DNA of 64,000 bases from Pirellulales bacterium. Lineage in GTDB: Bacteria; Planctomycetota; Planctomycetia; Pirellulales; Lacipirellulaceae. The stretch's first letter is position 1; every line of letters begins with the position of its first letter. A program made the translations under genes and the position numbers. Where the stretch lies: positions 1 to 64,000 of the forward strand of contig JAKVCC010000004.1 in NCBI GenBank assembly GCA_022448265.1. The letters are read 5' to 3'. The notes beneath the pieces were generated by a model. The model was not told the origin of the DNA, did no database searches, and saw only the letters and a program-made list of their open reading frames with translations. This document shows, one piece after another, positions 35,187-39,886 of the stretch.

Positions 35187-36338
35187 CTAGTCTAGCCAAT
35201 CCCGGGCACTGAGCCGTTCTGGCACGTAGACTTCCGTGACGTAGCTGATGTCTTTGGAGATGAGCGACTCGACTTCCAGCTTGAAATCGTTTTTGAGCAT
35301 CCTTTGGATTTCAGATTGCCAGGGGCGCTTCTTTGCGAACCAGGGGTAGTTGGCGATTTGTTTGGCGCGCTTGCGATCGTTGTCATTCATTGCAAGTATC
35401 ACGTCGTCGGACAGTTCGCAACGATCGTAATCGATACTTCTAAGCCCAAGAAACTTGGCCTCAGGGACGGCCATCCGCTGGCTCTCAAACGCCAAATTAA
35501 TTGATCCTTGCTTAATGACACTGTAAATATAATATCCCCAAGGGTCATTATCCAACACGCAGTAGATTGGTAATTTCAACTCGTTGTGCAAGCGGTGCAG
35601 CAGTCTCCGAATTCCTCGCGTCGGTTGCCCTCCGCCATGAGTAAGTATGCAATTGTGCTTTTCCCAAAAGCGGTCTTCATTGAATCGCTGCCAAACCGTA
35701 TCTTTTTCGACATGCAATACGAATTTGGCATGGCACTTTTTTCGGTCAAGCTTTATTACTTCTGGCTCGACAATTGAGGGGATGCCATATCCGCCTGAGC
35801 CCATGCGAGAACAGTCGATATCGAAGCCGCTATCATTGATGGTGATATTGCCGACAAGATCACCCTTCTTTTGTGCATAAAGGTGAAGCTCTTCGCGCAA
35901 GGATCCGAGCATTACCTCGACATCTTCGATAATCGTGTCGCTTTCATTCTGAGTATCAAAGGTGTTTTCTCTTGAGCCTTCAATTGTATGCTTGAGCATG
36001 TAGTACATGCCCCGGAGGCTAGTCGTCTTTCCTTGGTCGAGCAGTCGTTTGCAGCCGCTGGATACAAGTACGGTACGCATGTAAGCCTTGGCTTGCGAAA
36101 GATCAAATAGCTTTCGGCGATTCTTGTTATTGCCCATCTCGATGATCTTTTTTCGAGCGCTATAGTGAACGTTGGACAATGTGCGCGAGGGAATGTCAAC
36201 ATGAGGGTCCCGCCTCGCTTTAGCAGCTCTAACTACGCGATCGGCCACATCGGTAAGCCGGGCCATCGTTTTCTTGTCGCGCGGGCTGAGTTTGACTTTG
36301 GGTTTGCGCGCAGTGGCAACAGGTCGTTTTTTGGCCAT
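35187..36338 (-). CDS. top6A: DNA topoisomerase VI subunit A (Spo11/Top6A)
   Basis: Top6A is the DNA-cleaving subunit of the type IIB topoisomerase. The 383-residue protein has a basic N-terminus, the winged-helix catalytic motif SLRGMYYMLKH with the Tyr112-Tyr113 pair, and a Toprim domain with Glu211 (HVEKDTVWQ) and the Asp263-x-Asp265 pair (VLDNDPWGYYIYS). THGGGQPTRGIRRLL is another family hallmark. Length fits archaeal subunits. It follows top6B by 39 bases on the same strand, so both subunits come from one operon. Topoisomerase VI is typical of archaea and plants and is sparse in bacteria, so lateral acquisition in the lineage is plausible. The identification is strong because two partner genes agree. 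Confidence 0.96.
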   Translation of the reverse strand: MAKKRPVATARKPKVKLSPRDKKTMARLTDVADRVVRAAKARRDPHVDIPSRTLSNVHYSARKKIIEMGNNKNRRKLFDLSQAKAYMRTVLVSSGCKRLLDQGKTTSLRGMYYMLKHTIEGSRENTFDTQNESDTIIEDVEVMLGSLREELHLYAQKKGDLVGNITINDSGFDIDCSRMGSGGYGIPSIVEPEVIKLDRKKCHAKFVLHVEKDTVWQRFNEDRFWEKHNCILTHGGGQPTRGIRRLLHRLHNELKLPIYCVLDNDPWGYYIYSVIKQGSINLAFESQRMAVPEAKFLGLRSIDYDRCELSDDVILAMNDNDRKRAKQIANYPWFAKKRPWQSEIQRMLKNDFKLEVESLISKDISYVTEVYVPERLSARDWLD

Positions 36339-36377
36339 GGGTTTGCTTTCGCTATCGCGCCAGGTTTCCTCTTGAAA

Positions 36378-38477
36378 CTACTGGTCGTCTTCCAATTCTT
36401 CGGGTTCCAGAGCAACACGATTGATTGCCGCCTTGTGTGTGCTGGGATCGACGATTAGGACATTGTCGCCCAGGTTCAATTCTTCACCTTTATCCTCGAT
36501 CGGTCGGCCCCGATCGTCGAGTTTCATATCGGCTTCTGTCGTTTGTCTTTTAGCAACCTTAACTAATTGTTCGTAAAGCTCTTTTTGCTTGGCACCGTTG
36601 ATCTCGCTGACTGCGCTGGACACCTCCTTGAGGTAACGCAGGAAGATTTCACGGCGATCAGATTGTTGTCTCACTTTCAGGCGGCGGCGCAAGTACATGC
36701 CCAACTTGCGACCCACCGCCTGGAGGCCCAAGCGAATTTCTTTTTGGATCTCAGGATAGTTGGCAATTGCTTCTTTGGATTCGCTGGTGAACGGAACCCA
36801 AACGCTGGCAATGTGGACCATCAGTGAGACGGGGCCCTTGGGCATCGCCCCTCGTGATTGGCTTAGGCCATATCCGCGCCAATTGGTGCCCAGTACGGTT
36901 TGTGTGACGGCGCAGGCCGATTGCTGAAACTGGAGCGGCACGCGGTTGGCGTAGCGGAGGACCTCCATCTGTTGGCCCTCGGCCACATTGACTTTTTTCA
37001 TGGCTTCGTACAGTCGGTGGCGTTCTTTGGGCTGGAGTTTTCCCGGAGTTTGCCGCGTTTTTAGGGCTGCCTCTTTGACGAGTTTGTCGGCCGCTTCGCC
37101 ACCGAGGCCGTTGAAGGTGTGAATCAAGAACTGGCGGACGGTGCGGGTGTCGGTCTCTTCCAGCAATTCGAGAAGCAGGTCTTCGGTCACGTTTTGTGTG
37201 GGGGCGCTTCCGCCGTAGGCAAGTCCCACTTCGATCTGAAAGGGGTTGCCCCGATAGACGCTCGGCGGGCGGGTCGCGGCCGCGTAAAACTCACCGGGCA
37301 CCACCTGATGCAAACCCTTAAGAACCAAGTCCTCGCCGATCGGGCAGATGCAGTCGGTCGCCGGCGGACTGATTTTGGTTTGTTGGATCGTTTGGTACAG
37401 GCGGTCGGCGTGGGTGCGGTCGAGTTTACGCACATTGGAGCGGGTGCTGACCTTGGCTCCATCGCAAATGCGTTTAGCCATCGTCGAAGTCACGCGCGAA
37501 AACTTAGTGCGGAAAAACTCGCTGGCGCTCATCGCCTCCGATTCCTCAAGCATTTGGGCGAGGCGGCCCAGTTCGATGCCGTAGGGGTGTGGCTTGATCT
37601 CTTTGGGTTCGGCGGGAAGGGATTTGGCCGAGCGATCGTAGGCGTATTCGTAGTCATCAGGGTCGATGTAGTGCAGTGAAACGTGCGGGTTGGCAATCGC
37701 GGTTTGCTCGAGATACTCACCAACGCTGCCGCGGCCGCGGATGAATTTGGCCTGCAGTTCGATGGTGACGCGCGTGCCGTGCGGCTGTTCGACCCATTCA
37801 ATGCCGTGTTTTTCAATATACGCGGCCCCCTTGTCGCCAGGCGGAATGTCGACTCCGTCGCCGCGGCCGTTCAGGATTTTTGGCTGGTTCTTCTTGGTGT
37901 CGATTTGGATTTCGTAGTAGTGAGCCGGTTTGCGAGAAGAAATCTTGGAGATGATCTTCACCGGTTTTCCGGTGGTTTGCACGCCGTACATGCCGGCGGC
38001 ACTGATGCCGATGCCCTGCTGCCCGCGGCTTTGGCGAAGCCGGTGGAACTTGGAGCCATAGAGCAGCTTGCCAAAAATGAGCGGAATTTGCTTCTTGAGA
38101 ATGCCAGGGCCGTTGTCCTGGATGCCAACTTTGAAGCGGTCGCCCGTGGTTGGCTCGATGTGCACCCAAATCTCTGGCAAAATGCCCGCCTCTTCGCACG
38201 CGTCCAGCGAATTGTCGACGGCTTCCTTGACTGTAGTGAGAAGCGCCTTGCGCGGATTGTCGAAACCCAAGAGATGGCGATTCTTGGCGAAGAACTCGCT
38301 GACGGAAATATCGCGCTGGCTGGCCGCCATCGCTTGGGCGGTACTCCGCCGTTTGACTGGTGTGGCGTCACTGGCAGATGGCTTGGACCTGGGGGCCGGC
38401 CGTTTTTTCTTTTTGGTTTTTTTGCCGACAGCCGGCTCGCTGGCCGATCGTTTTTTCTTTCGTTTTGTGGTCGCCAA
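36378..38477 (-). CDS. top6B: DNA topoisomerase VI subunit B (Top6B, GHKL ATPase)
   Basis: Top6B binds ATP and drives the strand-passage gate. Of 699 residues, the first 50 or so are a Lys/Arg/Ser/Pro-rich extension. Then comes the Bergerat fold: N-box [15 protein letters not shown] (Glu85, Asn89), G1 box GIQDNGPGI and G2 box [17 protein letters not shown]. The helix-two-turn-helix and transducer domains follow ([20 protein letters not shown] near 540). The basic N-terminal tail is an extra compared with archaeal homologues and could bind DNA. The start is TTG at 38477. It is the first gene of the top6B-top6A operon; a region of nested inverted repeats lies about 240 bases upstream. Confidence 0.96.
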
Positions 38478-38986: not shown

Positions 38987-39391
38987 ATGTTCGTTCGAAC
39001 TGGTATTGCTAGTATGGCCCGCATGGGGCTTGCCGTCTGTTTGATCGTCGGGTTTTGGCACAGCGCGTCGGAGGCTCAAGGTGTGGACGGCCGTTGGAAG
39101 CGGGTCATTAGCTACCAGAACAAAAAAGACTTATTTGCCAATTACCAGGTTGGTCCGAATACAAGCGGTGCCGCCGCTCGCATGTACGTCTCGCCACAGC
39201 CTGTTCCACCGCACGTCGGGCACACCTACACGACTTACCAACCGCTGATGCCGCACGAATATCTCTACAAGCACATGCGGTCGCACTATGCCTACGCACC
39301 CGGATGCGGTTGGACGCGTTCTAAGGTGCGATACCGCACCTCAGGGCTTCGCTTGCAGGATTTGATGCACAATCTTAGTGGTCGCTATTAA
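38987..39391 (+). CDS. Small secreted protein of unknown function
   Basis: A 134-residue protein with a signal peptide (about 1-31, cleavage near SEAQG). The mature part is rich in Tyr, His and Pro (YVSPQPVPPHVGHTYTTYQP, YLYKHMRSHYAYAPGCGW) and has no recognised domain. The start is supported by a GGAGG ribosome site, which is rare in this window. A similar Tyr/His/Pro-rich exported protein is encoded next, 117 bases downstream, so the two may be related cell-wall or extracellular matrix components. Confidence 0.65.
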   Translation: MFVRTGIASMARMGLAVCLIVGFWHSASEAQGVDGRWKRVISYQNKKDLFANYQVGPNTSGAAARMYVSPQPVPPHVGHTYTTYQPLMPHEYLYKHMRSHYAYAPGCGWTRSKVRYRTSGLRLQDLMHNLSGRY

Positions 39392-39508: not shown

Positions 39509-39886
39509 GTGCTTAAAAATATTTCCATGGTTTTCAGCGTGGCCCTGTTAATGGCGGCTCAAGTCGAAACGGCTGCTTATGCGGAAGCAGGTTATTTGAA
39601 ACCCTTGCGGCGAGCGCAGCAGCACAATTGGCATGCCAACTATGCGCATTCGGCCTACGGGCAACCGGTGGCGCTGATCGTCCCTCCAACGGTACAGTTG
39701 CAGACGAATTGGAGTTGGGGCTCCCCCAGCGCCCATTTCTCTCGGGTCGATCATCAATTCGGCCGCAACTGCCCAGGTCCAGGGCAGTTTGGCAGTGATT
39801 TTCGGCGCACTCCCCGTTGGCCCAACAACACGCATCAGCTTGGTGTCTATTACGTGCGTGGGCCGTGGTATCCGACGCAGCCCTAG
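39509..39886 (+). CDS. Small secreted protein of unknown function
   Basis: A 125-residue product starting with GTG at 39509, preceded by AAGGA. A signal peptide (about 1-26, ending near AAYAEA) leads into a mature region rich in His, Trp, Asn and Tyr (AQQHNWHANYAHSAYG, RWPNNTHQLGVYYVRGPWYP). No domain is recognised. In composition and placement it resembles the 38987-39391 product, so it may be a diverged duplicate or a functional partner. Confidence 0.55.
   Translation: MLKNISMVFSVALLMAAQVETAAYAEAGYLKPLRRAQQHNWHANYAHSAYGQPVALIVPPTVQLQTNWSWGSPSAHFSRVDHQFGRNCPGPGQFGSDFRRTPRWPNNTHQLGVYYVRGPWYPTQP

Follow-up and report, generated by a model that had tools for sequence, protein, structure and literature searches.

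The closest described relatives of the enzyme considered here are the archaeal DNA topoisomerases VI (topo VI) of M. mazei (2Q2E, 9O0G) and S. shibatae (2ZBK, 1Z59). In the covered parts of PMC13040014 and PMC5922973, the H2TH domain of the M. mazei enzyme is described as gripping the bent G-segment by its arms, using R263, K268 and K308, and the sensing of a second DNA segment is attributed to a loop of the cavity (KGRR). Bacterial topo VI was treated by Allen & Maxwell (2024; PMC11302465), who sampled 17 bacteria. The sections of that paper covered here report an archaeal source of the bacterial enzyme by an older transfer, describe topo VI with both subunits in Pirellulales with no topo IV listed, and state the role of topo VI in bacteria as open. 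They also report a "unique alpha-helical bundle" at the transducer, located at the central cavity, in a model of Pirellula staleyi topo VI and of a dinoflagellate copy; there the bundle is not called an H2TH domain, and no exchange with topo IV within the order is mentioned. The window analyzed here is the 64,000-nucleotide stretch at positions 1–64,000 of contig JAKVCC010000004.1 (GCA_022448265.1, a draft genome of 3.64 Mb, 97% complete) from a Pirellulales bacterium, and it carries genes for both topo VI subunits, B (Top6B) and A (Top6A). With a probability of about 0.72, we read this pair as a decatenase that is inherited within Pirellulales and replaces topo IV, and whose H2TH domain was duplicated into the transducer on the stem of the order.

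The enzyme family and its presence in the order are known, while the duplicated H2TH domain and the exchange of topo VI for topo IV go beyond the literature covered here. Neither the identification of the insert as H2TH nor the exchange was found in print within those covered parts.

The original prediction of intact B and A genes, in that order and with a 39-base gap, was borne out, since the coordinates match and profiles identified both families. Subunit A scored above the cut-offs of Pfam as topo VI-A (PF21180, E = 2.9e-59; PF04406, E = 5.2e-16), and subunit B above those of NCBIfam and Pfam as topo VI-B (NF003218, E = 2.3e-203; TIGR01052, E = 9.8e-150; PF09239, E = 2.3e-52). The predicted active-site residues were likewise located, by motif position and by alignment to the solved proteins. 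They comprise the tyrosine pair Y112–Y113 and the Toprim residues E211 and D263/D265 in A, and a complete GHKL ATP site in B (E85/N89, DNGPGI from residue 121 and GQQGIG from residue 152). These residues are taken as catalytic, in part after the covered sections of PMC11302465. Subunit B also has the H2TH domain between GHKL and transducer, and a transducer with a long stalk helix (PF09239, split by an insert). The full-length predicted model of B (pLDDT 71.8) matched 9o0g_B with Z = 34.8.

M. mazei topo VI provides the nearest solved B (E = 1.6e-139) and shares the GHKL, H2TH and transducer arrangement, including the long stalk helix. It differs in a published C-terminal Ig-like domain, in the absence of the insert, and in an A subunit that is less like the window A than that of S. 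shibatae. The latter is the closest solved A (E = 2e-76), whereas the S. shibatae B is more distant (E = 1.4e-78) and also has no insert. Spo11/topo VIB-like systems are unlike the window B, which has two H2TH domains, in that their B-like partner is published as having none. The predicted complete archaeal-type operon in a bacterium is upheld. Judged from its sequence, the enzyme is a genuine DNA topoisomerase VI (A2B2, type IIB), and ATP-dependent relaxation and decatenation with breaks having 2-nt overhangs are predicted.

Absent from the original prediction was an insert of about 70 residues in B (about 431–503), which splits PF09239 between a strand that ends in AYGG and the RYANR strand. 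The corresponding site is just a short loop in M. mazei, in S. shibatae and in many other Planctomycetota. In hhalign comparisons, the insert matched the H2TH domain of the same protein (E = 4.2e-15, 66 gapless columns) and the H2TH domain of ten insert-free Planctomycetota loci (E = 8.9e-16, 65 columns), while control segments of B overlapping neither H2TH domain gave E = 0.059 or weaker. An HMM built from the insert only matched the canonical H2TH domain in 25 of the 27 insert-free Planctomycetota loci, with a best value of 2e-12 and no match in L053 and L056. When the PDB sequences as a whole were searched with the profile of the insert, the H2TH domain of S. shibatae topo VI-B ranked first (residues 237–301, E = 4.7e-7), with M. 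mazei (241–309, E = 1.6e-4) behind it; other H2TH proteins came next, namely ribosomal uS13 (E = 0.01) and Fpg (E = 0.055).

The predicted structures gave the same picture. AlphaFold modeled the insert alone with pLDDT 84.9, and Foldseek placed topo VI-B at all of ranks 1–14 (rmsd 1.1 Å for the first). The insert model matched 9o0g_B residues 235–314 with Z = 14.2, compared with MutM at 9.6 and below. In the full-length model, it forms four helices with lengths and spacing near those of the first H2TH domain. A weak Pfam match of the insert to NFACT_N was taken as a similar helical motif and not as kinship. By profile and by modeled fold, the transducer insert of B is a second H2TH domain, homologous to the topo VI H2TH. 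We give almost no credence to an unrelated helical bundle made H2TH-like by convergence: fold scores of helical bundles can be inflated, and single-sequence BLASTP between the two H2TH segments of the window B found no match, so that profiles were needed, but the two-way sequence-profile match, gapless over 65 residues and ranking topo VI-B above other H2TH proteins, speaks strongly against it.

The second H2TH domain was present in 105 of 106 Pirellulales loci, each of the 105 showing a match at i-E 2.2e-30 or better plus another, weaker match; the 105 form 92 clusters at 98.5% identity. The exception, L016, is a truncated contig that starts after the site. None of the 27 other Planctomycetota loci has it (L032 and L057 being one gene and L044 being cut inside its insert); at the site these show either a short loop or an insert of low complexity. 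The insert of family f66 (L041–L046), which splits PF09239 in some cases, was considered as the same domain and rejected as low-complexity and not H2TH. In a tree of 70 columns, the second-H2TH sequences formed one clade (100/100, 16 rows). Joining both Pirellulales H2TH sets as one clade was not rejected (p-AU 0.55, on 70 columns only), which allows an in-gene duplication without proving it.

From this distribution we infer, as the simplest history, a single in-gene duplication of the H2TH domain on the stem of the order. The copy, made inside the B gene, would have settled in the transducer at a loop whose length varies among relatives. The insert is presumably the bundle published for P. 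staleyi. A different modification of this domain was seen on a Natrinema plasmid (L152), whose Top6B has a large Asp/Glu-rich insert within its H2TH domain.

What the second H2TH domain does was considered from its residues, aligned over 43 rows. In the first H2TH domain, the equivalents of M. mazei R263, K268 and K308 are R323 (30% basic), R328 (98%) and K368 (100%). The corresponding positions of the second domain are I452, G457 (invariant) and N497, so the known contact residues are not found there. Replacement of these positions indicates that the copy diverged from the known contact mode; homology stands. The net charge of the second domain is about +1 (12 K/R, 11 D/E), against +6 for the first. 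Conversely, D443, R445, T446, R448 and R475 are invariant in 43/43 rows, and seven further positions are 65–95% Lys/Arg. By the placement given to the bundle in the covered sections of PMC11302465, the second H2TH domain would face the central cavity. There the five invariant residues may touch transported or strongly bent DNA and thereby tune strand passage.

A new DNA contact in the cavity is thus the favored role for the second H2TH domain, and a structural role is nearly as likely. The domain would in that case not bind DNA, and would serve as a spacer or as a contact between dimer mates, giving the cavity its shape or making the transducer stiffer between the ATP gate and the DNA gate. 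This is a serious contender, at somewhat less than even odds. The loss of the contact residues and the near-zero net charge speak for it and weaken a DNA-binding role, and so does the location in the transducer, which is reported to couple the gates in the covered parts of PMC13040014. Nevertheless, three invariant arginines (R445, R448 and R475) and seven mostly basic positions exceed the needs of a spacer. A more ambitious form of the DNA-contact reading is doubtful, although it deserves mention: the duplicated domain may have been repurposed in the DNA-transport cavity as a sensor of transported or crossing DNA, making the archaeal-type enzyme a dedicated bacterial decatenase that is exchangeable one-for-one with topo IV. 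The duplicated H2TH offers a defined, removable module for the recognition of DNA crossings and bends by topo VI.

As to whether gyrase and topo IV accompany the operon, a point raised by the original prediction, the window genome encodes gyrase, with one GyrA carrying a GyrA-box and one GyrB-type gene. A second, topo IV-type gene was not found in this genome. Across Pirellulales genomes that are at least 90% complete, the own genome included, Top6B was present in 183 of 217. The remaining 34 were obtained in part directly (20 listed) and in part by comparing two census lists (14). Thirty of them, all of family f15, have two PF00521 genes, including ParC. The ParC proteins of these 30 are 70–77% identical to that of one member, G330 (itself included in the count). 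In 10 further genomes of the order that were part of the same search, G330 ParC finds only matches of 36–41%, the level of GyrA.

A second full-length GyrA/ParC (PF00521) gene was found in none of the 183 topo VI-positive genomes. Three of these (G354, G433 and G449) gave two weak PF00521 matches each (best E 1e-101 to 8e-70), far weaker than a full gene would give and tentatively read as one gene broken across contigs. Another, G374, gave no PF00521 match and was excluded from the Fisher table. The exclusion between topo VI and topo IV in the order has a Fisher p of about 5e-29, for genomes that are not independent. The reciprocal presence of the two sets of genes argues strongly, on comparative grounds, for topo VI and topo IV having the same job in the order. 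Topo VI would work beside gyrase as the general decatenase in place of topo IV, presumably decatenating in vivo. The task proposed for it is that of bacterial topo IV (ParC/ParE); topo IV is unlike it in being type IIA with another subunit arrangement.

The exclusion might also stem from one ancestral event and shared descent rather than from functional equivalence, which we consider unlikely. The 30 ParC form one lineage in a tree with two ParC of the sister family, and their groups partly follow the GyrA tree, so that one arrival followed by sorting is possible; the lack of independence among the genomes points the same way. The GyrA tree was built from 43 chosen genomes: 22 that have topo VI and 21 of the 34 that lack it. 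Its supported branches force at least five changes of state, with both states inside each of two single genera (g284 and g286), and all 43 genomes carry one enzyme or the other. Moreover, both complete enzymes were seen together in none of the 217 genomes. Replacement of topo IV by topo VI is the reading that we prefer, and it makes species of single genera, using one or the other enzyme beside gyrase, a natural swap of type IIB for type IIA through which the bacterial role of topo VI becomes testable.

Some observations weigh against this replacement. Four genomes (G351, G357, G464 and G489) have neither topo VI nor ParC in these searches; their drafts may be incomplete, or there is no strict need for either enzyme. 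The phylum-wide comparison covered 163 genomes of at least 90% completeness. Of the 86 with topo VI, 76 have one PF00521 gene and 10 have two or more. Among the 77 without it, 28 have just one PF00521 gene, 48 carry at least two, and one has none. Exclusion across the phylum is a loose tendency only.

The topo VI gene was not found in the genome of G330, which keeps homologues of both genes neighboring Top6B in other members of the order. A candidate topo VI remnant in the G330 locus was rejected, as the best match (E = 3e-4) lies more than 5 kb from the expected site and in another ORF. The ParE gene of G330 is not beside ParC; a second PF00986 (GyrB/ParE-type) gene is on another contig. Outside the order, ten Planctomycetota genomes (G077, G083, G108, G158, G174, G177, G242, G248, G259 and G301) combine topo VI with at least two PF00521 genes and possibly have three type II topoisomerases. 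The covered text of PMC11302465 gives such sets of three only for Pseudomonadota and Terrabacteria.

The original prediction called topo VI sparse in bacteria; in this order, however, it is no exception. The relatives search found Top6B in each of its 59 genomes, that of the window among them, in addition to the 183 of 217 genomes of the order. Pirellulales Top6B formed one clade (100/100) among other Planctomycetota Top6B, and Pirellulales Top6A also formed one clade (96/88). A pair of small ORFs accompanies Top6B in 60 of the 67 named Pirellulales loci whose upstream sequence is long enough. On this presence, single clade and conserved neighborhood, topo VI within Pirellulales is vertically inherited as far as sequences can tell, and recent transfer or contamination as the source was rejected. 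Wide vertical bacterial inheritance, which had been named as the outcome that would count against the prediction, was thus found at the level of the order, while an older transfer from archaea is still likely and is not contradicted by the data here.

It is highly improbable that topo VI is an accessory gene pair, mobile or newly acquired, with no housekeeping role. The published archaeal origin (PMC11302465, covered sections) and the patchy distribution in the phylum, with Top6B in 136 of 294 Planctomycetota genomes, would suit it. For the order it is already refuted by order-wide presence and the single clade; the conserved neighbors and the reciprocal presence with topo IV also argue against it, as does the phage collection, in which no topo VI match was found. 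Matches on plasmids comprised three haloarchaeal topo VI-B and two weak partial ones. The latter were Top6B-like, on Synechococcus elongatus PCC 11801 (CP143530, 377–1036) and Halapricum (NZ_CP064792, 118844–119218), and the incomplete gene table of that collection lists no gene at either place.

The nearest named relatives of the window Top6B belong to Pirellulales near Lacipirellulaceae (Aeoliella, Botrimarina, Bythopirellula and Lacipirellula). The Top6B of a genome of the same genus (G004, locus L009) is the same as that in a Bythopirellula polymerisocia record (L073), and for this reason the window genome probably belongs to Bythopirellula. Within the same class, Top6B was not found in 16 genomes of family f21 in the phylum survey.

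The trees of both subunits contained only three archaeal rows, and the placement of S. shibatae in them rests on long branches. Pirellulales A grouped with S. shibatae (100/99), and the A of some other Planctomycetota, L031, L048 and L049 (families f78, f50 and f75), with M. mazei and a haloarchaeon. All Planctomycetota B, unlike A, grouped together (80/79), again with three archaeal rows. The two subunits therefore seem, on these trees, to have had different histories. The operon is split in G261, where Top6B and Top6A lie on separate long contigs (C37 and C38), and no A follows B in 10 of the 61 named loci with room for it. Records titled Chthonomonadales (L098) and Candidatus Nealsonbacteria (L105) carry Pirellulales-type topo VI and are probably misbinned or mislabeled contigs; L098 was also one of the rows of the Top6B tree.

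Table 1. Features of the topo VI locus and its neighbors, in window coordinates.
Feature	Position	Strand	Basis
Topo VI subunit A (Top6A, 383 aa, ATG start; winged-helix and Toprim)	35187..36338	-	ORF, Pfam/NCBIfam, PDB alignment
Codons for the catalytic tyrosine pair of A (Tyr112-Tyr113)	36000..36005	-	Motif position, alignment to 2q2e_A and 2zbk_A
Intergenic gap of 39 bases, B to A	36339..36377	-	ORF coordinates
Topo VI subunit B (Top6B, 699 aa, TTG start)	36378..38477	-	ORF, profiles, PDB alignment, fold match
Canonical H2TH domain of B, residues ~303-369	37371..37571	-	Aligned with Top6B of M. mazei and S. shibatae
Second H2TH domain of B, in transducer, residues ~431-503	36969..37187	-	Profile, PDB and fold matches
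Long transducer stalk helix of B, residues 575-627	36597..36755	-	Secondary structure of predicted model
Basic low-complexity N-terminal tail of B, residues 1-55; variable across the order	38313..38477	-	Composition; model pLDDT <50 (residues 1-73)
First small conserved neighbor ORF, oriented divergently to Top6B and with a hydrophobic N-terminal stretch; not part of the enzyme	38987..39391	+	Locus comparison; no Pfam match
Second small conserved neighbor ORF with hydrophobic N-terminus, not part of the enzyme; homologue in G330	39509..39886	+	Locus comparison; no Pfam match

The Lys-rich tail of about 50 residues that had been noted on B is present: 56 residues precede ISVSEFF, with 34% Lys/Arg and a net charge of +16. 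The tail is probably disordered, as judged from the model. Its suggested standing as a DNA-binding addition fared less well. Over the 50 residues before ISVSEFF, the window B has a charge of +14, compared with an order median of +5 (21 of 95 loci at or below zero) and a median of +4 in other Planctomycetota (4 of 25 at or below zero). Because the charge varies across the order and resembles that of other Planctomycetota, the tail is not distinctive, and a conserved DNA-binding addition was rejected on the variation among the 95 loci. Beyond the tail-coding end of the B gene lie the two small neighbor ORFs, both on the opposite strand.

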